Below are positions 6,366-12,783 of a stretch of DNA of 13,644 nucleotides, piece after piece (position 1 is the stretch's first letter; each line of letters starts with the position of its first letter). The notes beneath the pieces are model-generated. The model worked only from the letters and a program-made list of their open reading frames with translations, was not told the DNA's origin and made no database searches. Source of the DNA: Sphingobacteriales bacterium (GTDB lineage Bacteria; Bacteroidota; Bacteroidia; Chitinophagales; Chitinophagaceae); contig JAHEFC010000060.1 of the NCBI GenBank assembly GCA_024640385.1, positions 1-13,644 of the forward strand, in the 5' to 3' direction. Position numbers and translations under genes: made by a program.

Positions 6366-8702
6366 CTAATGTCCCATCGGGATAGACCATTCCACCAGGT
6401 CATTCATTCCTGCTCCATTTGAGCGTGCGCCTGTTGTGCTGGTAATATCACTCCACCTCAGTCTCCCATGCTGCGAATAAGGTATGAAACGAACTTTATG
6501 TGTTGAGCGTTCTACCCTGATCTCCATAAAGCTCTGGAAAAACGGCGCTACGTTATAATCAAATGCCGCGGATAGCCATTCTGCACTGAAAGGCCAGCCG
6601 TCAAATTGCCTGGTATACCACCAGACAGGATATTTATACCATGAAGTGTTGGCCTCGATTTTTCTTACAAGGGGATCATGGCTTGGATAAAATGCATAAT
6701 CCTTCGTTGGCATACTCCCTGGTTTTGCCATGGCTGTTCCTATACTCAGGTATGCGCCACCTCCGCCATTGACAAAATGATGCATGATATGCCCATCGTT
6801 ATTTTTTGGAGCTTCTATGTAATATTCTAAATCATGAGTGTCGCCCGCCATTACTACCGGAACCTTATATGCCCTCAGCAATTCATGAAGTTTTTGAAAT
6901 TCCGGATTCATACTTCCCTGATACTCGCCAATGGCATAGAAAGGATGGCCCAACAGCGCCATCACAAATTTACCTTTGCTTTTCTCAAGTACCTGCTTTA
7001 CCCACGACATCTCCAGGGAATCAAGCTGACGTTTCACACCTGTATCGATGCAGAGTAACACAAACTGATCATTGCTTACCTGGAAATAAGGGGCCTGTTG
7101 AAATCCCGTGGGCACTCTGTATTCATCACGCAGGAATTCAGCCTTGCTGATCATTTCATCGATATTTTTCCTTGAAGTGGATGATATACTGAGATCCTTA
7201 TTGATACGGGCCTGCATAGCTTTCCGGGCAGCATCCGGCTCATAGAAATTGGCCGCAAAGCCTTCGAGTGCATCATACCAATCGTGATTTCCGGGGATGG
7301 CATACACTGGCTTGGTTACTCCTTTCATCGGCATATAGAATTTCCGCTCGTAATCTTTCATGGCGCCAGAAGGATAGATCACGTCGGAAGAGATCACAAC
7401 AAATTTTACATCCGGCTTTTCAGCAACTTTCTGGATCATATCTTTTAAAACCAACTGCGAAGCATCACCCTCGCCCGGATCGCCAACTACAACAAAAGAA
7501 AAATCATCTTTATCATTAACTCCCTGTGGCAATAACCTGAATGAATTGGCAGATACGATCTTGTTGGTTGCAGATGACATCGCCGATCTCCACTCGTCAG
7601 TTCTTTTCGCTGCCCAGGAGTCCCAGACTCCGGAAGCCCAGTTCTCGGTATCAAAATACCAGCTCATGCCCAATACAGGCATTATGGCTGCCAGCAAGGC
7701 AGATAATGGCAGACCAACTTTAAGCCCTGTCCGTACCGCAGTTTGAAATGAGTAACCTGCTTTCCTTATCCTGATCCTTGTTCTCAGCCTCCTTTTAAGC
7801 GCTGCTGCAGTTAAACCTCTTGGAGAAAATGTTCTCCTGTTTTCCTTCGGCACTTCCTGCACCCATCGCCATAAAGATTTTTCTATGGATTTGCTGGCAG
7901 AACGGATTCCACCGGTAAGGGGCGCTATAATGGCATAACTGATGATTAGTGCTATGGCCATATCACCGATTACGGCAACACTTGGAGAGAGAAATCCCAG
8001 GAAACTCCTGTCAAGCCCCATTCTCCCCACATGGATAACGAACAGTACTACAATAAAAGTGATGATCCAGTATTTGTCTATATCTGCCCTTGCTGATTCT
8101 TCTATTTCCATTTCTTCGGCGAGCTCGGAGATCTCCTTGTTATCACTCAGCTTCATACTCACCATCAGGTCCTCACTTACGTCTTCCAGTCTTCCGATTT
8201 CCGCCGTAAGTATATTATACGTGATTCCGAAAATTCTCAATGCAACAGCAATGGCTAACGCAATATGCACGCCTCTTTCCCTCAGGAATATCATCAACAG
8301 GAGCACTGCCAGGTTTCCCGCGGCAGCCAGCCAGTCTTTCTTCTTTTTGGCAAGATCCGATTCCTGTAAAGCATGCTTTGAATAAATGAATACATCAAAA
8401 ATAAAAAGTGAAGCCACCATGATGGTCAACGCCCTGTCCATGAAAAGATCAGCATTGATCAGAAATACTCCCATCAGAAGGCTTATACCAGCGGTTTTCC
8501 AGGCCAGGGTCCGCTGGTCAGGCTTTGCCCGGCGGAAGCCATGGAACATTTCAATGAGTGCTGCAATTGTGATCAGGCCGCCCAGATCAGAAGCTGCCCC
8601 GGGGTCGGTGCTGAACATGTAAAAAAGGGACCAAAGGCCCAATAGGGTAACTATTACAGCAAATATGCGGCTCTCTTTATTTGGTTTGATTGCTCTCTGC
8701 AT
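6366..8702 (-). CDS. Polytopic membrane protein with C-terminal purple-acid-phosphatase-like metallophosphoesterase domain
   Basis: The protein has 778 residues. About nine hydrophobic segments are visible (roughly 13-30, 40-57, 68-84, 92-107, 122-140, 145-164, 212-229, 240-265, 328-348). The first six, in short helix pairs, vaguely resemble HdeD/DUF308 proteins. A very basic stretch (about 288-316) before the last helix suggests that loop is cytoplasmic, which places the enzyme domain in the periplasm. The calcineurin-like domain runs from about 400 to 750, with metal-ligand motifs GDPG (407-410), SDVIY (439-443), GNHD (471-474), GHPF (585-588) and GDTHD (620-624). The DxG plus DxxY pattern, rather than DxH, is the purple acid phosphatase type, with the Tyr as an iron ligand. 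Substrate is unknown; a phosphomonoester or phosphodiester hydrolase is likely. It is the last gene of a three-gene minus-strand cluster, 49 bp after the GH16 gene, and converges on the transaldolase gene. Confidence 0.82.
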   Translation of the reverse strand: MQRAIKPNKESRIFAVIVTLLGLWSLFYMFSTDPGAASDLGGLITIAALIEMFHGFRRAKPDQRTLAWKTAGISLLMGVFLINADLFMDRALTIMVASLFIFDVFIYSKHALQESDLAKKKKDWLAAAGNLAVLLLMIFLRERGVHIALAIAVALRIFGITYNILTAEIGRLEDVSEDLMVSMKLSDNKEISELAEEMEIEESARADIDKYWIITFIVVLFVIHVGRMGLDRSFLGFLSPSVAVIGDMAIALIISYAIIAPLTGGIRSASKSIEKSLWRWVQEVPKENRRTFSPRGLTAAALKRRLRTRIRIRKAGYSFQTAVRTGLKVGLPLSALLAAIMPVLGMSWYFDTENWASGVWDSWAAKRTDEWRSAMSSATNKIVSANSFRLLPQGVNDKDDFSFVVVGDPGEGDASQLVLKDMIQKVAEKPDVKFVVISSDVIYPSGAMKDYERKFYMPMKGVTKPVYAIPGNHDWYDALEGFAANFYEPDAARKAMQARINKDLSISSTSRKNIDEMISKAEFLRDEYRVPTGFQQAPYFQVSNDQFVLLCIDTGVKRQLDSLEMSWVKQVLEKSKGKFVMALLGHPFYAIGEYQGSMNPEFQKLHELLRAYKVPVVMAGDTHDLEYYIEAPKNNDGHIMHHFVNGGGGAYLSIGTAMAKPGSMPTKDYAFYPSHDPLVRKIEANTSWYKYPVWWYTRQFDGWPFSAEWLSAAFDYNVAPFFQSFMEIRVERSTHKVRFIPYSQHGRLRWSDITSTTGARSNGAGMNDLVEWSIPMGH

Positions 8703-9546: not shown

Positions 9547-10500
9547 TTATGTATTAGATTTCGATTTTGGTTTTCTGAGCAGGAAGATGATGATGCCTAT
9601 CAGGATGATCCAGGGTACACTGAATAAGATGAAATAAACAATAGATCCGAATAGGCTCCTGGTATTTGTGGTAAAGTCAGTTTTTTCAATGGCCCTGAAG
9701 CCCGGCGCATCGTAAAATGCTACATCAAAATCATTGATATCTTCATACAGCAGATGCTGCTGAGGGATCACTTTTTTTTCGAACTTGTAATCGGGTGCCT
9801 GCCCCTCATACCATACCACCATGGTTTCATTAAGTGAATCCGGCATCCATTTCAACTGCTGCATTGTTCCAGTGACTGTTTTTGGATATACGCCCTTGAC
9901 ATTGGTGAGGGTGAGGCCACCCATCAGTTTGACAAATACCTGCCGGATGCCCTGTTGCTTCCATTTGTCAAAACTGAAAACAAATGCATTCAGTTCTTTC
10001 ACTGTTTCGTCCCCTGATAATTTGCCCTGGTTATTCGGCGTGAGCTGATATGTTGTGATAGTGGTCACCTGGCCGGGTGGAAGTTGGGTGCCGAAGACGA
10101 GGGATCCTTCAACTGCCCGGGGCTTTATGGTGTCTTTGCCGATCAACACTTTCATGCCGGCTGATCCAAGGTTATTTAATTGATGGAAGAATCTGTGTGC
10201 AGTGGATAGGGTATCAGTCCAATGGAATTCTGCATAAAAACTGTCCTGGTGGGTATTCCGGATGTCGTACACCGACTTTACTACCGAAAAACCAGGGTAG
10301 ATCTGTACGAGGCTCAGTTGTTTCTGCAGTATAAGGCTGTCGTCATCATTTAAGGATGTGATACTGAAAGCGCGCCCGGAATTCCACAATCCATCCTCTA
10401 TTTTCTGTGCGGAAGCGGTTATGCATACCTGAAAAACGAAAACAAGCAGTAACAATGGTCTCATGCCCCGAATTTCATAAAATATTATTTGATTTTGCAT
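9547..10500 (-). CDS. Unrecognised exported protein with C-terminal membrane anchor
   Basis: I do not recognise a family. The 317-residue form starts at the ATG at 10500, preceded by an AGGA four bases upstream. An in-frame ATG at 10464 (Met13) would give 305 residues and a cleaner signal peptide (MRPLLLLVFVFQVCITASAQ), so that start is a real alternative. After the signal peptide comes a beta-rich, soluble-looking ectodomain (about 33-280), with no enzyme motif and no cysteines. A single strong hydrophobic helix follows (about 286-308), then a short basic tail (RKPKSKSNT). This predicts a type I inner-membrane protein exposing its bulk to the periplasm. It is the first gene of the minus-strand cluster with the GH16 enzyme and the phosphoesterase, and is divergent from the his leader. 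A sensing, scaffold or binding role is possible but unsupported. Confidence 0.75.
   Translation of the reverse strand: MQNQIIFYEIRGMRPLLLLVFVFQVCITASAQKIEDGLWNSGRAFSITSLNDDDSLILQKQLSLVQIYPGFSVVKSVYDIRNTHQDSFYAEFHWTDTLSTAHRFFHQLNNLGSAGMKVLIGKDTIKPRAVEGSLVFGTQLPPGQVTTITTYQLTPNNQGKLSGDETVKELNAFVFSFDKWKQQGIRQVFVKLMGGLTLTNVKGVYPKTVTGTMQQLKWMPDSLNETMVVWYEGQAPDYKFEKKVIPQQHLLYEDINDFDVAFYDAPGFRAIEKTDFTTNTRSLFGSIVYFILFSVPWIILIGIIIFLLRKPKSKSNT
10490..10497 (+). promoter_or_regulatory. Possible -7 element (TGATTTTG) for the his leader transcript
   Basis: TGATTTTG differs from the TAnnTTTG consensus at one base and lies 22 bases before the leader-peptide ATG at 10520, so a transcript would start near 10503. 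No clear -33 TTG is present. It overlaps the 5' end of the divergent coding region. This is a weak call made mainly from position. Confidence 0.25.
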
Positions 10501-10519
10501 TTTTCCTTATTTTCGTGCC

Positions 10520-10570
10520 ATGAATTCAAACATGCATGTACATCATCATCATATCTTACCCAGCAGGTAA
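10520..10570 (+). CDS. hisL: his operon leader peptide (16 residues, five His codons)
   Basis: A short open frame reads MNSNMHVHHHHILPSR and stops with TAA at 10568-10570. Five of its codons are CAT (10535 and four in a row at 10541-10552), so a shortage of charged tRNA-His would stall the ribosome there. It sits 74 bp upstream of hisG, immediately before a 1:2 hairpin, an antiterminator segment and a terminator, which is the arrangement of enteric his leaders. The peptide itself is presumed to have no function beyond translation sensing. No strong Shine-Dalgarno sequence precedes the ATG, as for most genes in this window. The call rests on the run of His codons combined with the RNA structure, not on homology. 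Confidence 0.88.
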   Translation: MNSNMHVHHHHILPSR

Positions 10571-10626
10571 GCCGGTGGTGTTTTATGCATAATCGATAAA
10601 ACTTTAAGGGCTTACAGATGTAAGCC
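10555..10626 (+). promoter_or_regulatory. his operon transcription attenuator (alternative RNA hairpins 1:2, 2:3, 3:4)
   Basis: Segment 1, CTTACC (10555-10560), pairs with GGTAAG (10566-10571) to form the 1:2 hairpin around the leader stop codon. Segment 2, GTAAGCC (10567-10573), is base-for-base identical to segment 4, GTAAGCC (10620-10626). Both are exactly complementary to segment 3, GGCTTAC (10609-10615). Between 2 and 3, GTTTTAT (10580-10586) and ATAAAAC (10596-10602) form a separate hairpin that would bring 2 and 3 together. Predicted logic: a ribosome stalled on the His codons covers segment 1, so 2:3 forms and transcription continues into hisG. With ample histidine, the ribosome reaches the stop in segment 2 and the 3:4 terminator forms. 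This is classical ribosome-mediated attenuation, inferred from complementarity. Confidence 0.87.
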
Positions 10627-10633
10627 TTTTTTT
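10606..10633 (+). terminator. Intrinsic attenuator terminator upstream of hisG
   Basis: A perfect 7-bp stem, GGCTTAC (10609-10615) with GTAAGCC (10620-10626), closes a 4-base loop and is followed by seven T residues (10627-10633). Flanking AAG/TTT extends the stem by up to three weaker pairs. It ends 11 bases before the hisG start codon, so it would block the whole his operon when formed. Confidence 0.9.
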
Positions 10634-10644
10634 ATTAGCAGAAT

Positions 10645-11499
10645 ATGAAACTCAGAATCGCTATTCAGAAGTCAGGCAGGTTGTATGAAGATTCCGTAAG
10701 CCTTCTCAGGGAGTGTGGAATAGACCTGCGAAATGTAAAAGACAGGTTGAAAACGGAATCGGATAATTTTCCGCTGGAGGTGTTTTTTCTCAGGGACGAT
10801 GATATACCGCAATATGTGCAGGACGCCGTTGCAGATATCGGGATCGTAGGAGAAAATGTATTGCTGGAAAAAAACAAATCAGTAGAAATTGTTGAGAACC
10901 TGGGATTCGGCAAGTGCCGATTGTCAGTGGCCGTTCCCCGTAACCAGGAATATGCGGGTATTGGATCTTTGTCTGGTAAAAAAATTGCCACCAGTTATCC
11001 GGGAATCCTCTCCAGGTATCTATCTGATCACAGTGTAACAGCGGAGATCCACGAGATCAGCGGCTCCGTAGAGATTGCACCGGGCATTGGCCTTGCAGAT
11101 GCTGTCTGTGACCTGGTCAGCAGCGGAGGTACTCTGTTCATGAATGGATTGAAAGAAGTGGAAACCATTTTGTCTTCACAGGCAGTGCTGGTCAGAAACC
11201 ACGACCTGAGTGCCGGCAAACTCGCCATACTGGAAAGGCTATTGTTCCGGATAAGGGCTGTTAAGAAATCCAAGCGGAACAAATATGTTCTCCTCAATGC
11301 GCCGAACGATAAACTGGATGAGATCGTTGCCCTTTTGCCCGGCATGAAAAGTCCCACGATCCTGCCGCTGGCGGAATCTGGCTGGAGCAGTGTTCACAGC
11401 GTTCTGAGTGAAGATACGTTCTGGGATATCATCGAGCAATTGAAGCAGGCCGGTGCGCAGGGTATACTGGTAGTGCCGATTGAAAAAATGATCATTTAA
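10645..11499 (+). CDS. hisG: ATP phosphoribosyltransferase, long form (first enzyme of histidine biosynthesis)
   Basis: HisG condenses ATP with PRPP to give phosphoribosyl-ATP, the committed step of histidine synthesis in the cytoplasm. The 284-residue length is that of the long HisG form, which carries its own regulatory domain and needs no HisZ. The catalytic part opens with MKLRIAIQKSGRL (1-13) and contains ADIGIVGENVL (63-73). The PRPP-binding region is SGSVEIAPGIGLADAVCDLV (139-158), followed by SSGGTL. The C-terminal ACT-like domain (about 208-284, ending AGAQGILVVPIEKMI) is the site of feedback inhibition by histidine in characterised long HisG enzymes. It is the first gene behind the attenuator and is followed by hisD after 9 bp. 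Control is therefore expected both of transcription (leader) and of enzyme activity (histidine binding). Confidence 0.96.
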   Translation: MKLRIAIQKSGRLYEDSVSLLRECGIDLRNVKDRLKTESDNFPLEVFFLRDDDIPQYVQDAVADIGIVGENVLLEKNKSVEIVENLGFGKCRLSVAVPRNQEYAGIGSLSGKKIATSYPGILSRYLSDHSVTAEIHEISGSVEIAPGIGLADAVCDLVSSGGTLFMNGLKEVETILSSQAVLVRNHDLSAGKLAILERLLFRIRAVKKSKRNKYVLLNAPNDKLDEIVALLPGMKSPTILPLAESGWSSVHSVLSEDTFWDIIEQLKQAGAQGILVVPIEKMII

Positions 11500-11508
11500 T
11501 TATTCAAT

Positions 11509-12783
11509 ATGGATATTGTACTTTATCCGGATAGGGGCAAATGGCCGGAGCTAATGAAAAGACCGGCTAATGATACTGCGCTGTTGGAGCGCCCCGTGAG
11601 CCGTATGTTGAAAGCAGTGAGATTGAAAGGAGATGCAGCGGTAAGAAAATACACTGCTGAGTTTGATAAGGTGAAGCTTCGTAAACTTGAAGTCAGTGCG
11701 AAAGAGATCAGGCAGGCCACGGCAGCCCTGGATCCTGTTTTAAAAGAATCAATCCTTCAGGCCGCAGAAAATATCAGGAAATTCCATTCCCTTCAGAAAC
11801 AGGGCGGTGAGGAGATCGAGACCATGCCCGGCATCATCTGTAAACGAAAAGCAGTGGCTATTGAAAATGTGGGGCTTTATATTCCGGGGGGTACAGCTCC
11901 TTTGTTCTCCACTATCCTAATGCTTGGTATCCCAGCTGTACTTGCAGGATGCAAAAATATCATTCTCTGTTCACCTCCTTCTGCAGATGGTTCATTACAT
12001 CCGGCCATACTATTTGCAGCTGATGCAGTTGGCATTAAGAAAATATTCAAAGCCGGGGGAGTGCAGGCTATCGGTGCCATGGCCTACGGTACTGCCAGCA
12101 TTCCCAAGGTGGATAAAATATTCGGTCCGGGCAACCAGTATGTGACACTGGCCAAACAAATGGTTCAGCAGGATGGTGTGGCGATCGACATGCCTGCAGG
12201 CCCGAGCGAGGTTTGTGTACTGGCAGATGCTTCAGCGGAGCCTGCTTTCATTGCATCGGATCTTTTATCGCAGGCTGAGCATGGTGTGGACTCACAGGTA
12301 TTGCTGGTAACCACATCCGAATCTCTCGTCCACAATGTGTTGAAGCAACTCAATGAGCAACTGAATAAGCTTCCCAGGAAGAAGATAGCAGAGAAAGCAC
12401 TGGAGAACAGCCGAGCCATTGTTCTTGACAATATGGATGAAGCTATGGCCCTGGTGAATGCCTATGCGCCGGAACACCTGATCATATCCTGTGTTGACTA
12501 TAACAAACTGGCGGAGCGAGTGGTGAATGCAGGTTCTGTTTTCCTTGGAAACTTTTCACCAGAGTCTGTGGGCGATTATGCAAGCGGCACCAATCATACT
12601 TTACCAACCCATGGTTATGCACGCGCTTACAGTGGCGTTAGCGTAGACAGTTTTGTGAAGAAGATCACTTTCCAGGAATTGACGAGAGCTGGCCTTGAAC
12701 TGATTTCCCAAACAGTGATCACCATGGCGGAACATGAAGGGCTGCAGGCCCATGCAGAAGCAGTAAGACAAAGATTAAAATAG
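11509..12783 (+). CDS. hisD: Histidinol dehydrogenase
   Basis: HisD carries out the last two steps of histidine synthesis, oxidising L-histidinol through the aldehyde to L-histidine with two NAD+. The 424-residue length is normal. Visible family segments are VGLYIPGGTAPLFST (121-135), AGGVQAIGAMAYGT (182-195), KIFGPGNQYVTLAK (203-216) and DMPAGPSEV (227-235). The expected zinc ligands are all present: Gln255 and His258 (SQAEHG), Asp356 (SVGDYASG) and His415 (LQAHAEA). They align with E. coli Gln259, His262, Asp360 and His419 at a constant offset of four. The catalytic pair Glu322-His323 (PEHL) also matches E. coli Glu326-His327. It is translated from an ATG 9 bp after the hisG stop and is followed by hisC after 12 bp, so the three genes should form one transcript. 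Confidence 0.97.
   Translation: MDIVLYPDRGKWPELMKRPANDTALLERPVSRMLKAVRLKGDAAVRKYTAEFDKVKLRKLEVSAKEIRQATAALDPVLKESILQAAENIRKFHSLQKQGGEEIETMPGIICKRKAVAIENVGLYIPGGTAPLFSTILMLGIPAVLAGCKNIILCSPPSADGSLHPAILFAADAVGIKKIFKAGGVQAIGAMAYGTASIPKVDKIFGPGNQYVTLAKQMVQQDGVAIDMPAGPSEVCVLADASAEPAFIASDLLSQAEHGVDSQVLLVTTSESLVHNVLKQLNEQLNKLPRKKIAEKALENSRAIVLDNMDEAMALVNAYAPEHLIISCVDYNKLAERVVNAGSVFLGNFSPESVGDYASGTNHTLPTHGYARAYSGVSVDSFVKKITFQELTRAGLELISQTVITMAEHEGLQAHAEAVRQRLK

Follow-up and report, generated by a model that had tools for sequence, protein, structure and literature searches.

Leader-peptide attenuation has been described mainly from Proteobacteria and Actinobacteria and from some Firmicutes, according to the accounts in PMC2965389 and PMC9413887. 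The latter describes His leader attenuators in the Bacillus cereus group, in Peptostreptococcaceae with Lutispora and in Erysipelotrichales (17 genomes). As described there, these share with the element reported here a short ORF with 3-5 consecutive His codons and an attenuator/terminator with an antiterminator; they come from another phylum, and the likeness is drawn from their description. From Bacteroidota, PMC9723704 reports a structured 5' element before hisG in Flavobacteriaceae that has no Rfam hits, and suspects leader-peptide attenuation before amino-acid operons of that family. The phylum and the gene are the same as here, although the text of PMC9723704, as far as available, gives no leader peptide or segments for hisG; signs of such control in Bacteroidota thus predate the leader described below. 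In Bacteroides thetaiotaomicron, of the same phylum, some long 5' UTRs contain short ORFs that have been called 'reminiscent' of leader peptides (PMC7366714); unlike the present case, histidine and hisG are named nowhere in the main text of that paper (0 occurrences).

The present work concerns a his operon in the window, by which we mean the whole stretch of 13,644 nucleotides that was analysed. Its leader resembles the enterobacterial his leader (RF00514) in having His codons, mutually exclusive pairings and a terminator before the his operon. The enteric leader has six segments and the element in the window four, which follow the 1:2, 2:3 and 3:4 logic of the trp-type four-segment attenuator. 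Attenuators in Bacteroidetes may already be listed by Lopatovskaya et al. 2010 (Mol Biol 44:128), a reference cited in PMC4833913. As a mechanism, the ribosome-mediated His attenuator is already known; the class to which the window belongs is, within the literature searched, a new and widespread sequence class.

At the gathering threshold no Rfam family matches the his element. Neither RF00514 (His_leader) nor the T-box models match it at gathering or at E <= 10, and the nearest leader families, Phe_leader (20.9 bits) and Thr_leader (13.3 bits), both lie far below their gathering score of 55. An earlier note on this DNA, made from the sequence alone, had called the leader unrelated in sequence to those of enteric bacteria and perhaps lineage-specific; as far as tested this holds, since RF00514 is unmatched and other families use other sequences.

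The leader region upstream of hisG

The features of the locus are collected in Table 1. Downstream of the leader, hisG, hisD and an incomplete hisC run in the same direction, and the first gene thus belongs to the histidine pathway. The leader ORF contains five CAT codons, four of them consecutive, and within the region of segment 2 the sequences GGTAAG (10566-10571) and GTAAGCC (10567-10573) overlap. The leader, its five CAT codons, segments 1-4, the T7 tail and the 11-base spacing to hisG were all found at the bases where the earlier note had placed them. An outer stem, in which the His-codon stretch pairs with the bases following segment 2, is absent from that note. The terminator scan gave a single site (10606-10629 plus tail), where shuffles average 0.2. 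The region 10515-10640 folds better than shuffles (z = -3.67), as does the terminator (z = -3.48), which has an energy of -12.7 kcal/mol by itself.

Table 1. Features of the his leader region and operon in the window
Feature	Position	Strand	Evidence and remarks
Possible -7 promoter element TATTTTCG, TAnnTTTG with one mismatch	10508-10515	+	4 nt before leader ATG
Leader peptide ORF MNSNMHVHHHHILPSR	10520-10570	+	ATG 10520, TAA 10568-10570; 16 codons plus stop
Whole attenuator	10529-10637	+	Covariance model R1 match, 96.8 bits; window among R1's own training sequences
His codons CAT GTA CAT CAT CAT CAT, putative sensing stretch	10535-10552	+	Sequence; conserved in relatives
Segment 1, CTTACC	10555-10560	+	Sequence, alignment, folding
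Segment 2, GGTAAGCC, leader stop codon inside	10566-10573	+	Sequence, alignment
Outer stem, 3' side, pairing with His-codon stretch 10532-10547	10574-10590	+	Folding
Whole terminator stem	10606-10629	+	Terminator scan and folding
Segment 3, GGCTTAC, terminator 5' arm and partner of segment 2	10609-10615	+	Sequence, alignment, folding
Segment 4, GTAAGCC, terminator 3' arm	10620-10626	+	Sequence, terminator scan, folding
T7 tail of intrinsic terminator	10627-10633	+	Sequence, terminator scan; 11 bases, then hisG ATG 10645
hisG, ATP phosphoribosyltransferase, long form with C-terminal domain	10645-11499	+	TIGR00070 190.7 bits (cut-off 75.75), TIGR03455 102.1 (cut-off 40.05)
hisD, histidinol dehydrogenase	11509-12783	+	TIGR00069 534.4 bits (cut-off 243.8)
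hisC, histidinol-phosphate transaminase, runs off contig end	12796-13644	+	TIGR01141 295.7 bits (cut-off 276.55)

A divergent gene of 317 aa (9547-10500, - strand), with no Pfam or NCBIfam match, lies on the other side of the leader. Its start codon is separated from the leader ATG by 19 bases, so the two promoters may overlap. Elsewhere the window holds a Bacteroidales small SRP RNA (RF04183; 5540-5646, + strand, 84.8 bits) and a protein of 778 aa (6366-8702, - strand) with a calcineurin-like phosphoesterase domain (PF00149) at residues 402-624.

Conservation of the leader

Conservation was assessed over 110 hisG loci: the best 80 contigs among the matches listed, 29 loci from same-genus genomes (the best among the 33 of 41 genomes with a match) and the window's own. 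The 80 contigs come from Niastella, Chitinophaga, Lacibacter, Flavihumibacter, Sediminibacterium, Hydrotalea, Puia and others, many of them named Chitinophagaceae. Seven pairs of identical regions occur in the set, in addition to the duplicates L006/L084. A His-rich ORF was picked by rule in 104/110 loci; two of the misses, L037 and L081, have almost no upstream DNA. The element is present in 108/108 loci having upstream DNA (of these 110, the best of those listed), and 107 of them, like the window, have a short ORF rich in the amino acid of the pathway. The exception is L050 (1823-1935), in which the RNA parts are intact, the peptide has a single His codon and N bases occur nearby in the contig. 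In L002 the ORF picked by the rule is spurious and the real leader lies farther upstream. In this locus, in L006 (duplicate L084) and in L063, the His-rich leader (79-84 bits) precedes an ORF of 129-157 aa, followed by hisG, and so stands in front of both; the intervening ORF may be of the GxxExxY type.

The frequency of such ORFs was compared with controls. A short ORF with a run of at least three His codons is found in 180 of 269 hisG upstream stretches (duplicates included), whereas each of ten dinucleotide-shuffled sets yields 0-4 and the reverse strand a single one. With a looser counting rule the count rises to 213/269; shuffles then average 17.15 and reach at most 29, the reverse strand gives 11, and control stretches 13/140.

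Pairing and covariation

Of 120 family rows in which the rule picked a leader, 105 distinct copies went into the alignment, after omission of L002 and with identical stretches counted once. L006, L037, L050, L063, L081 and L084, with no leader by rule, lie outside it. Segments 2, 3 and 4 hardly vary from GGTRRGCC, GGCTTACC and GGTRRGCC. At least 8 of 10 pairs of 3:4 can form in 104/105 copies and at least 7 of 8 pairs of 2:3 in 96/105. The 1:2 pairing is weaker (at least 5 of 6 pairs in 69/105 copies; 84.8% of cells paired), and the outer stem is weaker again, its alignable parts pairing in 39.8, 73.7 and 67.0% of cells in the relatives. A terminator with a T run was picked by rule in 94 of 97 distinct family copies; three of these picks are wrong (L032, L057 and L080), the correct hairpins being visible by inspection.

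The leader stop codon falls exactly within segment 2 in 84 of the 105 copies, which distinguishes the class from the trp-type attenuator and the window's element from the enterobacterial his leader. TAG (55 copies), TAA (33) and TGA (17) are all used, and each is able to pair with the UUA of segment 3 through A-U or G-U. The shared end of the peptide, L-P-x-R/G, is dictated by segments 1 and 2 and need not imply that the peptide has a function.

The earlier note had proposed to look in relatives for conservation of the His run and the alternative pairings, and for compensatory base changes in the segments. The His run is kept in 107/108 loci, all except L050. The pairings are kept as well, through segments that are nearly frozen in the family and, elsewhere, in 34/56 leaders. 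The compensatory changes are clear in the terminator. For 1:2, the outer stem and 3:4 combined, two-sided changes number 133 cells; shuffles give 35.8 and slid versions 19-82. The 2:3 pairing, however, has 7 such cells against 2.6 in shuffles, yet 2-13 in slid versions, and its covariation in the 105-copy alignment is not above controls, the score being reached in 69/500 shuffles. The lack of an excess can be explained by segment 3 having to fit both 2 and 4 in a sequence that is nearly frozen. Support for 2:3 therefore comes from sequence identity and from other families. In L028 and L088 all three segments have changed in step. When 2:3 was tested in individual leaders, 75/99 copies of the window's family, f1, reached p <= 0.05 and 24/99 missed; outside f1, the 34 of 56 leaders with a terminator by rule already mentioned reached p <= 0.05, 21 of them at p <= 0.01, and 22 missed (L140 was omitted as a duplicate of L116).

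A probable promoter close to the leader

The sequence TAnnTTTG is the -7 consensus of Bacteroidetes promoters (PMC7366714). An exact match lies within 45 nt before the leader ATG in 88/104 copies, compared with 4.2 in mononucleotide shuffles, and ends 4-10 nt before the ATG in 75/104. With one mismatch allowed, as in the window, the count is 102/104, but about 50/104 shuffles also match. The position of the element in the relatives suggests that transcription starts within a few nucleotides of the leader ATG, and so close a promoter would leave little room for a Shine-Dalgarno site. Bacteroidota mRNAs are without classical Shine-Dalgarno sites, and in B. thetaiotaomicron 5' UTRs of less than 10 nt make up only ~3.7%, as reported in PMC7366714. 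The leader is probably nearly leaderless, read from an RNA that would start just before its ATG.

Proposed mechanism

The conserved element, the codons matched to the pathway and the mutually exclusive pairings support the interpretation put forward in the earlier note, and we consider it very likely that the element controls the hisGDC... operon by ribosome-mediated transcription attenuation. What the sequence itself shows are the parts, how far they are conserved and that the pairings exclude one another; from these we infer the start of transcription, the stalling of the ribosome, termination and the response to histidine. When charged His-tRNA is present, the ribosome would reach the stop codon inside segment 2 and cover that segment, whereupon the 3:4 hairpin and the U tract would stop RNA polymerase short of hisG. 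Under a shortage of charged His-tRNA, the ribosome would stall on the CAT run, mask segment 1 and disrupt the outer stem; the freed segment 2 would pair with segment 3 ahead of the synthesis of segment 4, and the polymerase would continue. Without translation, 1:2 and 3:4 would form and the operon would be off. With an ordinary ribosome footprint, a ribosome at the later CAT codons would lie over segment 1 with segment 2 exposed, and one at the stop codon would lie over segment 2.

Alignment pairings, the 2:3 test and staged folds agree in making the antiterminator and terminator mutually exclusive. The fold is 2:3 when segment 1 is masked in an RNA that still lacks segment 4 (-16.2 kcal/mol; 0/200 shuffles as good), and with segment 2 covered it is 3:4 (-14.8 kcal/mol; 1/200 shuffles as good). 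The untranslated RNA folds into 1:2 together with the outer stem that involves the His codons (-21.4 kcal/mol), with a z of only -1.49 (20/200 shuffles). The single helices have energies of -5.6 (1:2), -9.1 (2:3) and -12.7 kcal/mol (3:4). Once segment 4 is included, masking segment 1 does not keep the terminator from being the equilibrium fold; antitermination must therefore be kinetic, decided during transcription.

Other explanations of the same features were considered. The terminator is strong alone (-12.7 kcal/mol), as would be expected of a constitutive terminator that merely insulates hisG from upstream transcription, with a chance ORF in front of it and no role for the peptide. We regard this as barely credible given the His runs, which occur in 180/269 stretches against 0-4 in shuffles, and an alternative pairing that different sequences preserve in other families (34/56). 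Moreover, the exact promoter element stands shortly before the leader in most relatives (88/104), where a plain terminator would cut the operon's own transcript. Alternatively, the switch might be set not by the ribosome but by a ligand, a protein or an uncharged tRNA, that is, by a riboswitch, an RNA-binding protein or a T-box. The near-frozen sequence of segments 2, 3 and 4 in the family is what a binding site might look like, and L050 has retained the RNA with one His codon. Against this, no T-box or riboswitch family of Rfam matched at gathering or E <= 10, other families preserve the layout with other sequences, and the leader codons match the pathway. They follow the operon from His before hisG to Lys and Thr before asd (both with controls) and, in sets without controls, to Trp at trpE and to Phe/Tyr at pheA. 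Recognition of the RNA by such a factor is thus highly improbable.

The leader could also work through translation, mRNA decay or Rho instead of intrinsic termination. This would suit the His leaders of families f41, f23, f19 and f39, which have no terminator by rule, and the thrA leader of the source genome, which is also without one. It is very unlikely for the window, whose family has a terminator with a T run picked in 94/97 copies (three picks misplaced) and 3:4 pairs in 104/105. The reading that we prefer for the window remains ribosome-mediated attenuation by intrinsic termination.

Distribution across the order and phylum

A hisG match is present in 65/149 genomes of the order and in 128/148 of the phylum, from which 159 upstream stretches were read (59 loci and 100 fetched); these cover a part of the phylum set, such as 9 of the 30 f35 matches. 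Leaders that satisfy the loose rule are present in f1 (16/16, one genome counted twice), f8 (7/7), f12 (6/7), f18 (9/11), c_f25 (14/14), c_f23 (5/5), c_f28 (4/4), c_f24 (2/2), p_f34 (12/12), p_f41 (16/16), p_f39 (3/4), f19 (6/11) and f21 (2/7). They are rare or absent where hisG starts LGLPKGS-like (f35 1/9, f31 0/3, f46 0/4, f33 0/2, f48 0/2), and none was found by this rule in f30 (0/4 stretches). The link with the type of hisG is not strict, as AIQKSG-like proteins are without a leader by rule in f36 (0/2), f32 (0/2), f43 (0/1) and most of f21. The segments are CTCAAGCG/CGTTTGAG in c_f25 and mostly GCGCCGG-like in p_f34. Family c_f25, in which 14/14 stretches have a leader, may correspond to the element of PMC9723704, the name of the family being a guess. 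Since His leaders also occur in families that do not share the window's class, the his switch may be ancestral or may have arisen several times.

No terminator was found by rule for the His leaders of p_f41, c_f23, f19 and p_f39, so the mechanism proposed above does not apply to those families. His leaders without a terminator by rule were seen in p_f41, c_f23, f19 and f9 (e.g. L141, L163, L172 and L195), and in f19 and f9 the peptide stops at HHS or one residue after it. The terminator-less leaders of p_f41, c_f23, f19 and f9 probably act in another way.

The covariance model R1 matches 111/147 family genomes at E <= 0.001, of which at least seven (G074, G328, G366, G407, G412, G414 and G447) have only weak matches before genes other than hisG; hisG is present in every locus of its 30 best matches. 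Because R1 was trained on family members, these matches are no independent test. In the order set R1 matches 28/149 genomes; G060, where the rule picks a leader before hisG, is not among them. Twenty extra matches of R1 include four before hisG (L405, L412, L414 and L415) and 11 before an aminotransferase, aspartokinase, asd or lysA gene, each with a Lys-containing ORF. The other five stand before other genes (L396, L398, L402, L403 and L404), one of them scoring 51 bits; weak R1 matches do not prove kinship.

Related leaders before other amino-acid genes

The asd gene, which encodes aspartate-semialdehyde dehydrogenase of lysine and threonine synthesis, was found in 58/60 family genomes and the best 30 loci were read (L446-L475). 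The common peptide is KHTKRTKK and the segment trio GGAAGG/CCTTCC/GGAAGG, with a terminator. At least four Lys in eight residues occur in 23/30 loci; 20 shuffled sets yield 0-4 each and the reverse strand none. A loose rule, applied without control, picks a Lys-rich ORF in 30/30, at least one of which (L464) is not the leader. The 2:3 pairing reaches p <= 0.05 in 26/30 leaders and p <= 0.01 in 18/30; the four failures are L460, L464 and L470, where the wrong ORF was taken, and L465 (p 0.075). TAnnTTTG lies within 45 nt before the leader ATG in 21/30. The asd leader of the source genome is MTMNKHTKQTKKHFRLGKV (L471, G000:C50; asd from locus base 1501), with a fold z of -2.95, beaten by one of 200 shuffles.

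In the source genome trpE (L317, G000:C206) is preceded by MNLNNKHWWWHTHS and a terminator made of a hairpin and a T run. Judged by eye, Trp-containing leader ORFs, 12 of which have a single Trp codon, stand before 15/16 trpE loci of the same genus, and a Phe/Tyr-rich short ORF (e.g. MISNRTRYFFYFYYYFTGGTGTFC) before 12/17 same-genus pheA loci (L300-L316), in the former case without a shuffle control and in the latter without control. In the pheA set loci at contig ends are badly placed, and the source genome's pheA match begins at base 52 of its contig. A Thr-rich ORF precedes thrA in 8/13 regions (without control), including that of the source genome, where MVKNQSYNSLSNVALSIAAIITTTITTR stands before the aspartokinase-homoserine dehydrogenase gene (L476, G000:C83). 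This thrA leader has no T run, no intrinsic terminator and no folding signal (z +0.58).

Lys-containing leaders were found before an aminotransferase gene in L397, L400, L401 and L406-L408, with aspartokinase next in L400, L401 and L408, and directly before aspartokinase in L410 and L411; in the genome of L397 the two genes are on different contigs. L406 has the core of the his element, CTTACC...GGTAGGC...AGCTTACC...GGTAAGCT, with a T run and the peptide MTRKLHKSKKHLPNR. Aspartokinase, asd and lysA passed curated cut-offs in L410, L411, L409 and L413, other genes being read by eye; the aminotransferase, scanned in L397 only, reached no NCBIfam curated cut-off. None of nine sister or distant loci matched Rfam at gathering.

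Leaders before two further genes were sought and rejected. An Ile/Leu/Val-run rule gave 0/30 ilvD loci, three of which have fewer than 200 bases upstream; in the source genome the DNA upstream of ilvD looks coding by eye and overlaps the ilvD start (TGATG). For lysC, 27/30 loci were scanned, and seven have an ORF with at least three Lys near the start, none of them convincing.

Implications

Within the literature searched, what is new is the reach of the class, its architecture and the codon-exchanged leaders, above all the Lys/Thr leader KHTKRTKK before asd. Two features of the design stand out: the stop codon is built into the antiterminator segment, and the leader is probably nearly leaderless. 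The evidence inclines us, with some reserve, to the view that in Bacteroidota one promoter-proximal, nearly leaderless leader design, in which codons are exchanged and the 2/3/4 trio is kept, serves as a general control of amino-acid operons, that it includes a Lys-sensing class, and that its his switch is ancestral or was repeatedly invented. The Lys/Thr leaders of this design (asd) and its Lys leaders (aspartokinase, the linked aminotransferase and lysA) form a class absent from the literature searched, in which, most subscription journals being outside it, no lysine-codon attenuator was found.

The covariance model R1 describes an element that is missing from Rfam 15. The hisG and asd leaders represent a natural codon exchange, which makes the sensing step directly testable. 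A family-wide, possibly phylum-wide set of such leaders poses the question of how stalling-based attenuation works with nearly leaderless initiation, and raises that of whether ribosome and polymerase are coupled in Bacteroidota. If the Lys leaders act as proposed, lysine supply would be sensed in these bacteria by ribosome stalling and not by a lysine riboswitch.
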